Below, piece by piece: positions 28,383-36,709 of a stretch of 64,000 nucleotides of DNA (positions are counted from its first letter, which is position 1; each line of letters begins with the position of its first letter). Where the stretch lies: NCBI RefSeq assembly GCF_005405885.1, contig NZ_BJFL01000002.1:124001-188000 (forward strand). Reading direction: 5' to 3'. The notes under the pieces were generated by a model that was not told the origin of the DNA, did no database searches, and was given only the letters and a program-made list of their open reading frames with translations. The stretch comes from Gandjariella thermophila. Its GTDB lineage: Bacteria > Actinomycetota > Actinomycetes > Mycobacteriales > Pseudonocardiaceae. Made by a program: the position numbers and the translations under genes.

Positions 28383-29162
28383 TCAGGCGAGCGGCGGCAC
28401 CAGCGTCTTGGGGACCTTGGCGGCGGCCGCCCGGTCCAGCAACCACAGCGTGCGGCGCTGGCCACGGGCCCCGGCGGCGGGGATCTGCACCTCACCGGCG
28501 CCACCGAGGGCCATGGCGACCGCGGCCGCCTTGGACTCGCCGGTGGTCATCAGCCACACCTCGGCCGAGCGGCGGATCGCCGGCAGGGTGAGGCTGACCC
28601 GGGTCGGCGGCGGCTTGGGGCAGTTGCGCACCGCCACCACCGACCGCTCGGTCTCGTACACCGCCGGGGACGCGGGGAACACCGACGCGGTGTGCCCCTC
28701 CTCGCCGACGCCGAGCAGACAGACGTCGAACGACGGCACCGAGCCGTGGTCCTCCGGCCGGGCCGCGTCGGCGAGGACCCGGGCGTAGTCGGCCGCGGCC
28801 GCCTCCGGGTCGTCGCCGAACTCCCCGTCGGAGGCGGCCATCACCCGCACCCGCCCGGGGTCGACGGCGACGTGGTCCAGCAGTGCCTCGCGGGCCTGGG
28901 TCTCGTTGCGGTCGGGGTGGCCGGTCGGCAGGAACCGCTCATCGCCCCAGTACAGGTCCACCCGGGACCAGTCGACCGCGCCCATCGCCGGAGCCGTCCG
29001 CAACTGCTCCAGCACGGCGATGCCGGTGCGGCCGCCGGTGAGCACCAGGGAGGCCGAACCGCGCGCGGCCTGCGCGTCGACCAGCCGGGTAACCAACCGC
29101 GCGGCCACCGCGGCGGCGAGCAACTCGCCGGTGGCGTGCACGATCACCTGTGGCTTGCTCAC
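28383..29162 (-). CDS. pgl: 6-phosphogluconolactonase
   Basis: Hydrolyses 6-phosphogluconolactone in the oxidative pentose phosphate pathway; 259 residues, DevB/SOL family. Conserved features include LVLTGGRTG, the region VDLYWGDERFLP (about 90-101) and LLGVGEEGHTASVFP (about 150). The GTG start overlaps the opcA stop by four bases. It is the last gene of the tkt-tal-pgi-zwf-opcA-pgl operon and ends at a bidirectional terminator. Confidence 0.95.
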   Translation of the reverse strand: MSKPQVIVHATGELLAAAVAARLVTRLVDAQAARGSASLVLTGGRTGIAVLEQLRTAPAMGAVDWSRVDLYWGDERFLPTGHPDRNETQAREALLDHVAVDPGRVRVMAASDGEFGDDPEAAAADYARVLADAARPEDHGSVPSFDVCLLGVGEEGHTASVFPASPAVYETERSVVAVRNCPKPPPTRVSLTLPAIRRSAEVWLMTTGESKAAAVAMALGGAGEVQIPAAGARGQRRTLWLLDRAAAAKVPKTLVPPLA

Positions 29163-30436
29163 GACGTGGCACCCGCCTCCGATTCCGCCAGCCGCCTGCT
29201 CGCCCGTCGCGCGGGCTTGGGTGCAGGGTGCCTGCCGTTGGCCTGCGCCGCATCCGCACCGGCCGAACTCGACGCCTCCGAGCGGTTCGCCGACTTGCCG
29301 GCGACCTTGGCCTTCGCCTTGGGTTTGGTCTTGCCGCCGTTTTTCTTACCGCCCTTGCCGGGCTCGGCGCCGGACTTCGCCGCCGCCCCGGCGGTGGTCC
29401 TCCCGGTGGACTGCCCGGTGGACTCGGCCGGGTTCCTCGCGGCGGTCTTCGGGTCGGATCCGCCGCTCCCGGTGGACTTCTCGGCGGCCTTGGCGGTCGA
29501 CCGGGACGCGGAGGCCCGGGCCCGGACGACGCGGCCGAGTCCCTGCAGCGTGGTCTCGTAGATCACGTCTGGCTCCAGCCGGCGCAGCTCCTCGGCCAGG
29601 CAGTCGCGTACCTGGCGGCGCTGCAACGCGACCCGACGGTCCGGCTGCCCCGGCTGGGTCAGCGTCCCGATGCGACCGTCCGGGCGAACCAGCTCGATCG
29701 GCCCGGACTTCCGTTCCAGGCGTACCGTCACGATGCCCTCGCCGAAGGTCGCCTTGGCCCGGCTCACCCGGATCCCCAGGCACGTCGCCAGCCACGCGGC
29801 GAGCAGGTCGGTGGACGGCGAGTCGGCCTCGCCGGTGACCGACGCGCCGGTGACCCGGTCGTGCGGCGGCAGGTCCAGCGCGGCCGCGAGCACCGCGCGC
29901 CAGGTGGTCAGCCGGGTCCAGGCCAGGTCGGTGTCGCCCTCGGCGTAGGACTTCCGGCGCTGCTCCAGCGCCTTGATCGGATTCCGCTCGGCGGCCGAGT
30001 CGGTGATCCGCCGGGTGGCGAGCTGACCGATCGGGTCCTGGGAGGGCACCGACGGCCCGTCGAACGGCCACCAGGCCACCACCGGGGCGTCCGGCAGCAG
30101 CAGCGGCACCACGCAGCTCGCGCCTTCGTCGGCCAGCGGCCCGTAGAGGCGCAGCACGATCACCTCGCTGGCCCCGGCGTCACCGCCGACCCGGATTTGC
30201 GCGTCCAGCCGGGGCGCCGCCTTCTTGGTGCCGCGGGCGACCACGATCACCCGGCACGGGTGCTCGCGGCTGGCGTCGTTGGCCGCGTCGATGGCCTCCT
30301 CGGTGCGGAACCCGTCGTCGGTGACGATGACCAGGGTGAGCACCCGGCCGAGCGCTACGGCGCCGCCGGATTCGCGCAGTTCCACGAGCTTGCGGTTGAC
30401 CTGAGAGGTCGTCGTGGACGGCAGATCGAGGATCAC
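29159..30436 (-). CDS. opcA: glucose-6-phosphate dehydrogenase assembly protein OpcA
   Basis: Actinobacterial/cyanobacterial partner of Zwf, thought to promote its oligomerisation or redox control. Residues 1 to about 300 carry the family features: the N-terminus DLPSTTTSQVNRKLVELR and the central PDAPVVAWWPFDGPS. A tail of about 120 residues rich in Ala, Lys, Ser and Gly follows (KAAEKSTGSGGSDP, GKGGKKNGGKTKPKAKAK). From memory, the M. tuberculosis protein is about 303 residues and lacks this. GTG 30436 overlaps the stop of a 72-codon upstream ORF; its stop overlaps pgl. Confidence 0.93.
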   Translation of the reverse strand: MILDLPSTTTSQVNRKLVELRESGGAVALGRVLTLVIVTDDGFRTEEAIDAANDASREHPCRVIVVARGTKKAAPRLDAQIRVGGDAGASEVIVLRLYGPLADEGASCVVPLLLPDAPVVAWWPFDGPSVPSQDPIGQLATRRITDSAAERNPIKALEQRRKSYAEGDTDLAWTRLTTWRAVLAAALDLPPHDRVTGASVTGEADSPSTDLLAAWLATCLGIRVSRAKATFGEGIVTVRLERKSGPIELVRPDGRIGTLTQPGQPDRRVALQRRQVRDCLAEELRRLEPDVIYETTLQGLGRVVRARASASRSTAKAAEKSTGSGGSDPKTAARNPAESTGQSTGRTTAGAAAKSGAEPGKGGKKNGGKTKPKAKAKVAGKSANRSEASSSAGADAAQANGRHPAPKPARRASRRLAESEAGATS

Positions 30437-30592: not shown

Positions 30593-30651
30593 GGCCGGGC
30601 CTGGCGGCCCGACGTCGCTGGATCGGCGTCTGCGGCGCGGCGGGCGCTCAC
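30433..30651 (-). CDS. 72-codon repeat ORF coupled between zwf and opcA
   Basis: Not recognised. The GTG start overlaps the zwf stop (GTGA), with GGAGG 5 nt upstream inside the last zwf codons. Its TGA overlaps the opcA GTG (GTGA). Residues about 20-72 consist of three 17-18-residue repeats with the pattern SDR-x3-P-x-PAR-x-R (SDRPVPPWPAR, SDRSALPHPAR, SDRPLLSVPAR). Perfect coupling at both ends supports real translation, but the peptide may matter only for moving ribosomes to opcA. Each repeat carries its own GTG, so internal initiation is also possible. Confidence 0.5.
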   Translation of the reverse strand: MSARRAADADPATSGRQARPSDRPVPPWPARTIRVNTVSDRSALPHPARSRESIVSDRPLLSVPARARESTQ

Positions 30652-32180
30652 GGCCGCCTCCAGTGCCGGCCGGTGCGGGCCATCATCGCGTCAGCCGACT
30701 CCGGACCCCACGTGCCGGAGTGGTACGGCTCGGGCTTGCCGTTGTTCTCCCAGTGCTTGATCACCGGGTCGAGGATCTCCCAGGACTGCTCGACCTCCTC
30801 GTTCACCGGGAACAGCGAGGGCTCGCCGAGCAGCACGTCGAGCAGCAGCCGCTCGTAGGCCTCCGGCGAGGACTCGGTGAACGCGTGCCCGTAGCCGAAG
30901 TCCATGGTGACGTCCCGGACCTCCATCGCGGTGCCCGGGACCTTGGAGCCGAACCGCATGGTCACGCCCTCGTCCGGCTGCACCCGGATCACCAGGGCGT
31001 TCTGCCCCAGCTCGGCGGTGGCGGTGGAGTCGAACGGCAGGTGCGGCGCCCGCTTGAACACCACCGCGATCTCGGTCACCCTGCGGCCCAGCCGCTTGCC
31101 GGTGCGCAGGTAGAACGGCACCCCGGCCCAGCGGCGGGTGTTCACCTCGAGGGTGATCGCGGCGAATGTCTCGGTGATCGAGTCCGCGGCGATGCCCTCC
31201 TCGTCGAGGTAGCCGCGCACCTTCTGGCCGCCCTGCCAGCCGCCCAGGTACTGGCCGCGGGCGGTGGTCTCGTCGAACGGCCCGACCGGGGTGGTCGCGG
31301 ACAGCACCTTGGTCTTCTCGGTGCGCAGCGCCCTCGGGTGGAACGACACCGGCTCCTCCATCGCGGTCAGCGCGAGGAGCTGGAGCAGGTGGTTCTGGAT
31401 CACGTCCCGGGCCGCGCCGATGCCGTCGTAGTAGCCCGCGCGACCGCCGATGCCGATGTCTTCGGCCATGGTGATCTGCACGTGGTCCACGAAGTTCGAG
31501 TTCCAGATCGGCTCGAACAACTGGTTGGCGAAGCGCAGCGCCAGGATGTTCTGCACGGTCTCCTTGCCGAGGTAGTGGTCGATGCGGAACACCGACTCCT
31601 CGGGGAAGACCTCGTTGACGATCTGGTTCAGGCTCTTCGCGCTGGCCAGGTCGTGCCCGAACGGCTTCTCGATGACCACCCGCCGCCACTGGTCCGGGTT
31701 CTGCGCGGACAGCCCGGAGCGGGCCAACTGCTGGCACACCACCGGGAACGCGCCCGGCGGGATGGACAGGTAGAAGGCGTGGTTACCACCGGTGCCGCGG
31801 ACCCGGTCCAGGTCCTCGATGGTGCTCACCAGGTTCTCGAAGGCAGTGTTGTCGTCGAAGCTGCCCTGCACGAACCGGATGCCCTCGGACAGGCTCTGCC
31901 ACACCGACTCGCGGAACGGGGTGCGGGCGTGCTCCCGCACCGCCTCGTACACGATCTTGCCGAAGTCCTCGTCCGCCCAGTCGCGCCGGGCGAAGCCGGT
32001 GAGCGCGAAACCCGGCGGCAGCAGGCCCCGGTTGGCCAGGTCGTAGATGGCGGGCATCAGCTTCTTGCGGGACAGGTCACCGGTGACACCGAAGATCACC
32101 AGGCTGCACGGTCCCGCGATGCGCGGCAGCCGCTTGTCCCGCTCGTCCCGCAGCGGGTTGCGCCATACCTGCGTGGTCAC
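30648..32180 (-). CDS. zwf: glucose-6-phosphate 1-dehydrogenase
   Basis: First enzyme of the oxidative pentose phosphate pathway; 510 residues. FGVTGDLSRKKL (about residue 30) is the coenzyme-binding motif and RIDHYLGKETVQN (about 198) carries the substrate and catalytic His/Lys residues. The GTG start overlaps the stop of a 32-codon ORF by four bases, and its own stop overlaps the start of the 72-codon ORF. OpcA, its assembly partner, is encoded downstream. Confidence 0.97.
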   Translation of the reverse strand: MTTQVWRNPLRDERDKRLPRIAGPCSLVIFGVTGDLSRKKLMPAIYDLANRGLLPPGFALTGFARRDWADEDFGKIVYEAVREHARTPFRESVWQSLSEGIRFVQGSFDDNTAFENLVSTIEDLDRVRGTGGNHAFYLSIPPGAFPVVCQQLARSGLSAQNPDQWRRVVIEKPFGHDLASAKSLNQIVNEVFPEESVFRIDHYLGKETVQNILALRFANQLFEPIWNSNFVDHVQITMAEDIGIGGRAGYYDGIGAARDVIQNHLLQLLALTAMEEPVSFHPRALRTEKTKVLSATTPVGPFDETTARGQYLGGWQGGQKVRGYLDEEGIAADSITETFAAITLEVNTRRWAGVPFYLRTGKRLGRRVTEIAVVFKRAPHLPFDSTATAELGQNALVIRVQPDEGVTMRFGSKVPGTAMEVRDVTMDFGYGHAFTESSPEAYERLLLDVLLGEPSLFPVNEEVEQSWEILDPVIKHWENNGKPEPYHSGTWGPESADAMMARTGRHWRRP

Positions 32181-32307: not shown

Positions 32308-33201
32308 TCAGGAAAGCTCCTGCACCGCCTTCACGAGGTGAGCGAGCCCGGCCAGCCGGTCGGTGAGGTGCACCCGCAGCACCGGTCGGCCGCGGCCGGC
32401 GCCGCAACCACCGGTGTCGGCGAACACCACCTTGTCCGCGCCCTCCGCGTGTGCCGCGGCGAGCGCGGCGGCCAGCCGCAGCGCCGGGTTGCTCGGGCTG
32501 TCCTCGGCCAGGTCGCCGGCCACCGCGGCCGCCTCGTCCAGCAGGGCGGCCGCGTCCGCGCCGGCCAGCCCGGCGGGCACCAGCCCGAACGCGGCGAGCG
32601 CCGAGTACCGGCCCCCGGCGTGCGGGTCGGCCAGGAACACCCGGCGGTACCCGGCCTCGCGGGCGGTCGCCTCCAGCGGCGAGCCGGGGTCGGTGACCAC
32701 CACGATCCGGCTGGCCGGGTCGACGCCGGCCGCGGCGAAGGCCCGCTCGAAGATCCGCCGGTGGCTGTCGGTCTCCACGGTCGACCCGGACTTGGACGAC
32801 ACCACCAGTACGGTGCGGGTCAGGTCACCGGCCAGCGCGTCGGCCACCTGACCGGGATCGGTGGTGTCCAGCACCACCAGCGGCGCACCCGCGGTGGCGC
32901 AGATCACCTCGGGGGCCAGGGCGGAACCACCCATGCCGGCCAGCACGACCCGGTCGACGCCGTCCGCGGCCAGTTCCGCGCGCAGCGCCTCGATCTCCGC
33001 GAACAGCGGCCGGGACGTCTTGTGCAGGGTGGTCCAGGACAACCGGATGCCGGCCTCGTCCCGGGCGGGCGGACCCCACAGCGTGGGGTCCGCCGCCGCC
33101 AGCCGGGTGGCCACCCGGTCGGCGACCAGGGCGTCGACCAGCGGCGCTGCCTCGGCGTCCAGCCGAGAACTGGCGATGTCGACGGTCGCCTTCAGGGCCA
33201 T
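32308..33201 (-). pseudogene. pgi: internally deleted glucose-6-phosphate isomerase
   Basis: The 297-codon frame matches the N-terminal half of long actinobacterial Pgi: VVLAGMGGSALAPEVI, SSKSGSTVETDSHRR and FLADPHAGGRYSALAAFGL in the first SIS domain. After VVFADTG it jumps (GCGAGRGRP) directly to what looks like the extreme C-terminus, PVLRVHLTDRLAGLAHL. Full-length relatives have about 540-550 residues, so roughly 250 are missing, including most of the second SIS domain and the catalytic residues near the C-terminal half. The frame is intact and the start (ATG 33201) is 4 nt from the tal stop. Assembly collapse is an alternative to a real deletion. Confidence 0.75.
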
Positions 33202-33205
33202 CCAG

Positions 33206-34324
33206 TCAGCCCTTCGCCTGGTCCAGTGCGGTGCGGACGGTGTCGAGCAGCTCGTCCCAGGACTTGACGAACTTGTCAACGCCCTCGTCCTCCAGCACGC
33301 GGAACACGTCCGGCACGTCCACGCCGACCCGGGTCAGCCCGTCGAAGACCTGCTGGGCCTCGCCGGCGCGGCCGATGACCGTGTCGCCCTCGATCCGGGC
33401 GTGGTCCTCCACGGCCAGGATGGTCTTCTCCGGCATGGTGTTCACCACGTCCCGGGCGACCAGCTGGTCGACGTAGCGGGTGTCGGAGTACTCCGGGTTC
33501 TTCACCCCGGTGGACGCCCACAGCGGCCGCTGCGGGTTCGCCCCGGCCTCGGCCAGCTTCCGCCACCGCTCGGAGCCGAACACCTCCTGGTAGGCGGCGT
33601 AGGCCAGGCGGGCGTTGGCGATCGCCGCCTCGCCGCGCAGCGCGAGCGCCTCATCGGTGCCGATCGCCGTCAGCCGCTTGTCCACCTCGGTGTCCACCCG
33701 GGACACGAAGAACGAGGCCACCGAGTGGATCTCGGCGAGGTTGTGGCCGTTTTCGCTGGCCTGCTCCAGGCCGGCCAGGTAGGCGTCCATCACCGCGCGG
33801 TACCGCTCCACCGAGAAGATCAGCGTGACGTTCACGCTGACACCCTCGGCGATGGCGCGGGTGATCGCCGGCAGGCCCGCCACCGTGGCCGGAATCTTGA
33901 TCAGCAGGTTCGGCCGGTCCACCGTCTTCCACAGGTCCAGCGCCTCGGCCACGGTGCGCTCGGTCTCGTGCGCCAGCCGGGGATCGACCTCGATGGACAC
34001 CCGGCCGTCCAGGTGGTTGGTGCGCTCGTAGATGTCCCGGAACAGGTCGCAGCCGTTGCGGATGTCGGTCGTGGTGACCTCGCGCACCGCGGCGTCCACC
34101 GACGCGCCCCGCGCGGCCAGCTCACGCAACTGGTCGGTGTAGGACTCCCCGTGCGCCAGCGCCGCGGCGAAGATCGTCGGGTTGCTGGTCACGCCGACGA
34201 CGTGCTTGTCCCGGACCAGTTCGGCGAGGTTGCCGGAGTTCAGCCGCTGCCGGGAGATGTCGTCCAGCCAGATCGACACGCCGGCATCGGACAGCGCGGC
34301 GAGCGGGTTGTGCTGCGTCGTCAC
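33206..34324 (-). CDS. tal: transaldolase
   Basis: Transfers a dihydroxyacetone unit between sugar phosphates; 372 residues, the long actinobacterial type. GVTSNPTIF lies near residue 44 and LLIKIPAT near 140 carries the Schiff-base Lys. [12 protein letters not shown] and [13 protein letters not shown] are also typical. The GTG start overlaps the tkt stop by four bases. A pgi remnant follows. Confidence 0.96.
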
Positions 34325-36420
34325 TTGGATCCCTCCAGACGGGACAGGCTGCGCCGGGCCGCGTCCGCAACGGCCTCGGCGGTGAAGCCGAACTCGCGGA
34401 ACAGAGTCTTGTAGTCCGCGGAGGCGCCGAAGTGTTCAATCGAGACGATCTCGCCGGCGTCGCCCACGAACCGGTGCCAGGGCTGCGCGATGCCCGCCTC
34501 GACGGCCACCCGCGCCCGCACCGACGGCGGGATCACCCGCTGCCGGTAGGCCTCGTCCTGCGCGTCGAACCACTCCATGCACGGCATCGAGACCACACGC
34601 GTGGCAACGCCCTCGGCCTCGAGAACCTTCCTGGCCTCGACCGCGTACTGCACCTCGGACCCGGTGGCGACGATCACCACCTCCGGCTGCCCGTTGGTGG
34701 CGTCCTGCAGCACGTAGCCGCCGCGGGCGACGCCGTCCGCGTCGGTGCCCTCCAGCACCGGCACGCCCTGCCGGGTAAGCGCGAGACCGGCCGGACCGTC
34801 CGGGGACTGCAGGATCGCCTTCCACGCCGCGGCGGTCTCGTTCGCGTCGGCCGGGCGGACCATGGCCAGCCCGGGGATGGCGCGCAGCGTGGCGAGGTGC
34901 TCGATCGGCTGGTGGGTCGGGCCGTCCTCGCCCAGGCCGATCGAGTCGTGCGTCCACACATAGACCACGGGTACCCGCATCAGCGCGGCGAGCCGCACCG
35001 CCGGCCGCATGTAGTCGCTGAAGACGAGGAACGTGCCGCCGTAGGGGCGGGTCGGGCCGTGCAGCACGATGCCGTTGAGGATCGAGCCCATGGCGTGCTC
35101 GCGCACACCGAAGTGCAGGGTGCGGCCGTACGGGTTGGCCGCCCACATCGTGGTGGAGATGTCGGTCGGGCCGAACGAGGCCGCGCCCTTGATGGTGGTG
35201 TTGTTGCTCTCCGCCAGGTCGGCCGAGCCGCCCCACAGCTCCGGCAGCACCTCGCCGACCGCGGCGAGCACCTCACCGGACGCCTTGCGGGTGGCCACGT
35301 CCTTGGACCCGGGCTCCCAGGTCGGCAGCTTCTCCGCCCAGCCGTCCGGCAACTCGTAGCGGGACGTCCGGTCCAGCAGCGCCTTGTGCTCCGGGTTGGC
35401 CTGCGCCCACGCGTCGAAGGCCCGCTGCCACTCCTCGTGCGCCGCCCTCCCTCGCTCGGCGACCTTGCGGGTGTGCGCCAGCACCTCGGGCTCCACCTGG
35501 AAGCGCTGGTCCGGATCGAAGCCGAGGATCCGCTTCACCTCGGCGACCTCGTCCTCGCCGAGCGCGGCGCCGTGCGCCTTGCCGGTGTTCATCTTGTTCG
35601 GCGCCGGGTAGCCGATCACCGTGCGCAGCACGATCAGCGAGGGCCGCGTCGTCTCGGCCTTGGCCGCCTCGATCGCGGCGAGGAAGTCCCTGACGTTCTC
35701 CCCGCCCTCGACGTACTGCACGTGCCAGCCGTAGGCCTCGTACCGCTTGGCGGTGTCCTCGGACAGCGCGATACCGGTGTCGTCCTCGATGGAGATCTTG
35801 TTGTCGTCGTAGATCACCACCAGGTTGCCCAGCCGCTGGTGGCCGGCCAGCGACGACGCCTCCGAGGTGACCCCCTCCTCGATGTCGCCGTCCGAGGCGA
35901 TCACGTAGATGAAGTGGTCGAACGGGCTCTCGCCCGGCGCGGCGTCCGGGTCGAACAGGCCGCGCTCGTAGCGGGCCGCCATCGCCATGCCCACCGCGTT
36001 GGCCAGACCCTGGCCGAGCGGACCGGTGGTGGTCTCCACGCCGGGGGTGTGGCCGTACTCGGGGTGGCCCGGCGTCTTGGAGCCCCAGGTGCGCAGCGCC
36101 TTGATGTCCTCCAGCTCCAACCCGTAGCCGGACAGGTAGAGCTGGAGGTAGAGGGTCAGGCTGGAGTGGCCCGCGGACAGCACGAACCGGTCCCGGCCGA
36201 TCCAGTCCGGGTCGGCCGGGTCGTGCCGCATGACCCGCTGGTAGAGCGCGTAGGCGACGGGCGCCAGGCTCATCGCCGTGCCGGGGTGGCCGCTGCCCAC
36301 CTTCTGCACGGCGTCCGCGGCGAGCACCCGGATCGTGTCGACCGCGCGCTTGTCCAGCTCGGTCCAGTCGTCGGGCACGTTGGGTTGCGTCAGTCGGGTG
36401 AGGTCGTCGGTGACGGACAC
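34321..36420 (-). CDS. tkt: transketolase
   Basis: Thiamine-diphosphate enzyme of the pentose phosphate pathway; 699 residues. [13 protein letters not shown] near residue 35, the ThDP motif [13 protein letters not shown] to [10 protein letters not shown] (about 160-195), the pyrimidine-domain stretch [20 protein letters not shown] (about 475) and a C-terminal domain are all present. GTG 36420 (SVTDDLTRL) is preferred; GTG 36435 is in frame, but both lack a strong ribosome-binding site. First gene of the minus-strand pentose-phosphate operon. Confidence 0.95.
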
Positions 36421-36709
36421 GGACTCGAGCTCCACTCTGGTCGTCGGTTGTGCGTTGTGTGGCCGGACGGTCAGCGTCGGGCACGACGTTCTCAATCGAT
36501 CCGGAAACAGTGTGCCCCACCGGCCCGTCCCGCGTGGTCTCCCTCGTGCGCGCGCCAGCCTAGTCGGCGCGCCGGAGAAGGTGTGGCCTCGGCTGATCGA
36601 CCCCCTGCGACGGGTGGGCGGCGTCACGCGTCTAGCATCGAGAAGGCCCGGTGTCCAGGGTTCCCAGACCCGGGCGGGAACGAATCCGACTCCGGAGTTG
36701 AGGAGCGAA
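36421..36709. other. tkt-ctaB divergent intergenic region
   Basis: About 290 bp, 320 bp counting the ctaB leader ORF. It must contain the promoters of the pentose-phosphate operon and of ctaB. A TAGCAT box at 36633-36638 is a candidate -10 for ctaB. For tkt no convincing pair is seen; an AT-richer patch at 36491-36515 (TCTCAATCGATCC, AAACAG) is the likeliest location. No gene is supported. Confidence 0.5.

Follow-up and report, generated by a model that had tools for sequence, protein, structure and literature searches.

Operon-type and canonical glucose-6-phosphate isomerases

Glucose-6-phosphate isomerase (Pgi, EC 5.3.1.9) has two SIS domains, with an active site located between domains and a glutamate and a lysine as catalytic residues. 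The canonical enzyme is described by PF00342. In this actinobacterial order, a second, long form is encoded in the pentose phosphate operon between the transaldolase gene tal and the glucose-6-phosphate dehydrogenase gene zwf, and its nearest model is PRK09533/NF007080, the C-terminal half of a bifunctional transaldolase/Pgi. A full-length member of this form scored 435 bits against NF007080, indicating that the long operon Pgi is a relative of the transaldolase/Pgi fusion class and not a canonical Pgi.

Here, we analyzed a 64,000-nucleotide stretch (the window) of one 6.1-Mb draft genome in 131 contigs, the sole member of its genus in the collection. The operon, on the minus strand, has the order tkt-tal-pgi-zwf-opcA-pgl and is otherwise ordinary. 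The transketolase ORF tkt (34321-36627) is intact, and its true start probably lies within the ORF. The pgi gene (32308-33201) is flanked by an intact tal upstream (33206-34324) and an intact zwf downstream (30648-32180), as expected from the original prediction of an operon that continues normally on both sides. Two further genes, which we take from family knowledge to be opcA (29159-30436), encoding the glucose-6-phosphate dehydrogenase assembly protein, and pgl (28383-29162), encoding 6-phosphogluconolactonase, complete the operon. Elsewhere in the same genome, on contig C4, we observed a second zwf-like gene (L237:4224-5570) with 35-37% identity to the operon zwf.

The operon pgi lacks its catalytic half

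Translation showed that the frame is uninterrupted over the whole minus-strand coding sequence from 33201 to 32308, which encodes 297 amino acids and a stop. We aligned this protein to 97 distinct full-length relatives, mostly from Pseudonocardiaceae genera (Saccharopolyspora, Saccharothrix, Amycolatopsis, Kutzneria, Streptoalloteichus, and others), and found that approximately 244 amino acids are absent in frame between its residues 264 and 271, close to the 250 or so that had been predicted. In the assembly, the deletion size is about 730-750 bp. The same short protein with proven activity in close relatives had been named as an observation that would speak against this interpretation; all of the relatives (97/97) encode 534-554 amino acids, and no close relative shares the deletion. 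An open frame alone is weak evidence, since one net loss in three would preserve the frame by chance.

The retained gene consists of two parts and a join. Residues 1-264 (32410-33201), the N-terminal part that carries the first SIS domain (SIS1), are kept, including the phosphate-binding loop SSKSGSTVETD and the GGR motif (GGRYS). The C-terminal tail (residues 271-297, GRPVLRVHLTDRLAGLAHLVKAVQELS, 32311-32391) is also kept and, in alignments and predicted models, corresponds to the final strand and helix of the C-terminal domain that was otherwise lost. Between them lies a filler of about 18 nucleotides (32392-32409, peptide GCGAGR) that aligns with neither side. Thus both ends that the original prediction had recognized are present, but they are not joined directly. 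The filler is unique within the window and the genome, which rejects its copying from elsewhere. A 94% inverted match of 16 nucleotides connects the join (32389-32404) with 32721-32736, 316 nucleotides apart in the same gene; it could have served as the filler template and is also compatible with chance in such GC-rich DNA.

The lost part comprises SIS domain 2 and nearly all of the C-terminal domain, and both catalytic positions fall inside it, in agreement with the predicted absence of the catalytic half. These are the glutamate of AESTGK, aligned to E285 of the Bacillus stearothermophilus Pgi, and the lysine of signature 2 (FDQPDVEAAK), aligned to K420, with numbering counted from the alignment. 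A search for the missing block across the 6.1-Mb assembly gave only a best E value of 0.155, to a canonical Pgi, which rules out relocation to another genomic site.

Family models support this assignment. PF00342 matches only the middle of the window protein (94-255 of 486) with 23.8 bits against a cut-off of 22, and SIS1 is the only SIS domain found. The closest NCBIfam model is NF007080, with 192 bits against a cut-off of 712. The protein is therefore nearer to the long operon-type Pgi than to the canonical Pgi, and its gene occupies the same position between tal and zwf. The best explanation for these features is that the window protein would be unable to isomerize glucose-6-phosphate.

A canonical Pgi is encoded elsewhere in the genome

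The original prediction had offered two consequences of the deletion: the cell has a second Pgi, or it has separated glycolysis from the pentose phosphate branch. We found one canonical Pgi in the genome, a 542-amino-acid protein on contig C30 (G000:C30:11939-13390) with a full PF00342 match of 720 bits, which bears out the first. Since this second Pgi is complete by sequence, the separation is not supported.

The gene, pgi2, belongs to a cluster with the order tkt2-tal2-pgi2-gnd. The surrounding sugar cluster (L236:3752-13592) also contains genes that we presume, from reading the sequence without a family search, to encode a ROK-type glucokinase, a HAD-like protein, and a GH65-like phosphorylase. 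The pgi2 gene is closest (81%) to a copy in G111, where the order tkt2-tal2-pgi2-gnd is the same, suggesting that the cluster may have been transferred.

Loss of the operon Pgi accompanies the canonical Pgi

Full canonical Pgi was found in five of 60 family genomes (G000, which is the genome studied here, G003, G004, G038, and G049), and in 66 of 390 family genomes from 7 of 46 genera when the survey was extended. Most relatives rely on the operon Pgi alone; having a second Pgi is therefore uncommon, and it is what would allow the loss to be tolerated. A frequent second P0001 match in family genomes was rejected as a second Pgi, because PF00342 shows one Pgi in most of them.

We then compared the 390 genomes, scoring an intact operon Pgi by a strong match to the SIS2 block. 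The operon Pgi was lost or strongly diverged in 58 genomes with canonical Pgi and intact in 8; without canonical Pgi, it was intact in 320 and lost in 4. The latter four, which have neither Pgi (G027, G354, G365, and G370), are fragmented or incomplete assemblies. A p-value for the whole table is not meaningful because most of the 58 belong to one Pseudonocardia-like genus (g5). Without g5, the counts are 3 (canonical, lost), 8 (canonical, intact), 1 (no canonical, lost), and 316 (no canonical, intact), with a Fisher p of 1e-4, in a count that ignores shared ancestry. Within g5, four genomes retain an intact operon Pgi with about 70% identity and all motifs, and none of the four has the canonical Pgi. 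These data show that genomes with a damaged, divergent, or missing operon Pgi are almost exclusively those that also carry a canonical Pgi.

Individual genomes illustrate how far the loss can go. In G079 (genus g3; L231), the operon pgi between tal and zwf has been cut down to its C-terminal ~88 residues, and canonical Pgi is present; this truncation is an independent parallel to the window. G191 has a clean 4-bp gap between tal and zwf, and G180, G103, and G368 have 168-285 bp there without a match. In G111, both the operon pgi and the operon zwf are gone, and the genome carries tkt2-tal2-pgi2-gnd-zwf2.

We propose that a single internal deletion occurred in the long operon-type Pgi and was sealed with a short filler, and that the loss would be tolerated because the complete canonical Pgi of tkt2-tal2-pgi2-gnd, presumably expressed and active, supplies the reaction. 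More generally, the presence of a canonical Pgi would release the operon Pgi from catalysis, after which it may be deleted, truncated, or made into a non-catalytic protein. The window would be one case of this recurrent retirement, with several independent cases among the relatives. We regard this account as a whole as likely.

Is the deletion an assembly artefact?

The main alternative is that the operon pgi is full length in the organism and lost ~730 bp only during assembly or gap filling. The draft state of the assembly with its 131 contigs is consistent with this possibility, as are the well-conserved tail and the normal evolutionary rate of the remaining fragment. In the relatives, the closest sequences to the SIS part are from Streptoalloteichus (79-82% identity), and in a three-gene tree the window adjoins Goodfellowiella and Crossiella. 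Compared to tal and zwf, the retained SIS part has a relative terminal branch ratio of 0.90 (rank 39 of 63), so that no relaxed constraint is seen over the remnant as a whole. This lack of acceleration indicates that the deletion is recent, or that the fragment is still constrained, or that the deletion is not real. The only signs of relaxation, and weak ones, are the substitutions S94A, V195A, and E256D at columns invariant in 97/97 relatives. Pairwise omega between the window and its neighbors is unreliable because synonymous sites are saturated.

However, the break itself does not resemble an assembly collapse. No direct repeat longer than 9 nucleotides was found at the two break regions in the relatives, which rules out repeat-mediated collapse, and the join carries filler, unlike the repeat collapse of an assembler. 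No other contig carries the lost block. Furthermore, canonical Pgi occurs in only 11 of 328 family genomes outside g5, so a random error would coincide with a backup Pgi in about 3% of cases. Taken together, an artefact is unlikely, and a genuine deletion, reflecting the tolerated loss of a redundant enzyme, is probable.

The operon Pgi is conserved without an active site in other lineages

Among the g5 genomes that carry canonical Pgi, 43 encode, between tal and zwf (L175-L230), a protein of ~400-680 amino acids with 33-46% identity to the operon Pgi. In this pseudo-Pgi, the phosphate loop, GGRYS, AESTGK, DQPDVEAAK, and HSTGQYHKGG are lost completely or nearly so. Pairwise codon models gave omega values of 0.033-0.127 in 17 of 18 pairs (the remaining pair was saturated), not far from those of tal (0.02-0.08), with likelihood ratios above 100 against neutrality. 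This demonstrates that the g5 pseudo-Pgi is under purifying selection. The protein is most enzyme-like at residues 391-456 and 511-540 of the C-terminal domain and in the SIS1 framework.

The same association with canonical Pgi holds in other families of the order, for which we examined the loci between tal and zwf (L238-L245, L250, and L252). In genus g60 of family f15, the motifs are lost in five genomes with canonical Pgi, and the pairs tested have omega values of 0.16-0.21, compared to 0.02-0.04 for zwf. Degraded operon Pgi together with canonical Pgi was also found in G423 (f13) and G465 (f16). Two intermediates, G464 (catalytic Glu changed to Gly) and G458 (Lys lost), have a partly degraded operon Pgi, and in G476 both Pgis are nearly intact. 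Five genomes without canonical Pgi (G424, G482, G446, G452, and G399) keep all motifs. These 15 other-family genomes were chosen partly for weak scores and thus illustrate the pattern rather than forming a random sample.

That a Pgi devoid of an active site has been kept repeatedly beside glucose-6-phosphate dehydrogenase and OpcA suggests that its role in the oxidative pentose phosphate pathway is structural or regulatory. The operon Pgi would then have a second, non-catalytic role and be kept repeatedly as a pseudoenzyme under purifying selection once catalysis has passed to the canonical Pgi, in two lineages or more (g5; g60 of f15) and probably also in f13 and f16, with the window as an independent, more drastic case; we consider the chances of this proposal to be evenly balanced. 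More interesting than the deletion itself is this wider pattern, in which the operon Pgi recurrently turns into a conserved protein lacking an active site once a canonical Pgi has appeared. We found no description of such a pseudo-Pgi in the open-access literature searched, where absence is not proof.

The window protein is probably a decaying remnant

Alternatively, selection may maintain the 297-amino-acid protein as a non-catalytic SIS protein comparable to the g5 pseudo-Pgis; it might, for instance, sense sugar phosphates or act together with glucose-6-phosphate dehydrogenase. A sensor function of the surviving SIS domain had been part of the original prediction. SIS1 and its phosphate loop are indeed intact, and the rate is not elevated. 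In addition, the pseudo-Pgis elsewhere are under purifying selection and conserve the SIS1 framework residues and the same C-terminal tail. But two features set the pseudo-Pgis apart: their conserved part of the C-terminal domain, residues 391-456, is absent from the window protein, and the phosphate loop, which the window protein keeps, is lost from them. Predicted structures point in the same direction. The models of the window protein and of a full-length relative both match Pgi structures in the PDB, and the SIS1 core of the former is confident. Its substrate loops (residues 92-104 and 197-213) and residues 264-297 are below pLDDT 50, and its tail is unpacked at 34-38, whereas in the full-length relative this tail is ordered (80-89), forming the strand and helix with which the extra C-terminal domain ends; the low values are suggestive only, because the alignments were shallow (28-29 sequences). 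The phosphate loop is still present in the sequence, but the active site of a Pgi is located between domains, and the case for a sensor is weak; a selected SIS protein is improbable.

A working Pgi of compact or split form, despite the retained GGRYS and phosphate loop, is almost certainly excluded, since the catalytic Glu and Lys positions and the whole SIS2 are gone and no operon-type piece is encoded elsewhere. We prefer the reading that the window protein is probably an inactive remnant, which would be decaying rather than doing new work.

In the window, a central-metabolism enzyme would be in the late phase of being replaced by another version of itself. The genomes compared form a graded series: operon Pgi alone, both Pgis intact, a fading active site, a truncated gene, a conserved protein without an active site, and a deleted gene. 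For genes of this operon, the annotation glucose-6-phosphate isomerase may be wrong, and such misannotation would mislead metabolic models of antibiotic-producing actinobacteria.

Comparison with known systems

The window protein shares residues 1-264 and 271-297 and the tal/zwf location with the long operon-type Pgi, but is without ~244 residues, among them SIS2, both catalytic residues, and the greater part of the C-terminal domain. With the canonical Pgi (PF00342, ~550 amino acids), it has the SIS1 fold in common; the canonical pgi2 is complete and located in a separate cluster, with 720 bits compared to 23.8 bits for the window protein. The pseudo-Pgis of g5, f15, f13, and f16 resemble the window in their place between tal and zwf, in the loss of catalytic motifs, and in the co-occurrence of canonical Pgi. 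However, they keep 400-680 amino acids and lost the motifs by substitution under purifying selection, whereas the window shows one deletion and a kept phosphate loop. The G079 remnant is also a truncated operon pgi between tal and zwf with the tail present and canonical Pgi elsewhere; it consists of the C-terminal ~88 residues only, without SIS1, whereas the window protein keeps SIS1.
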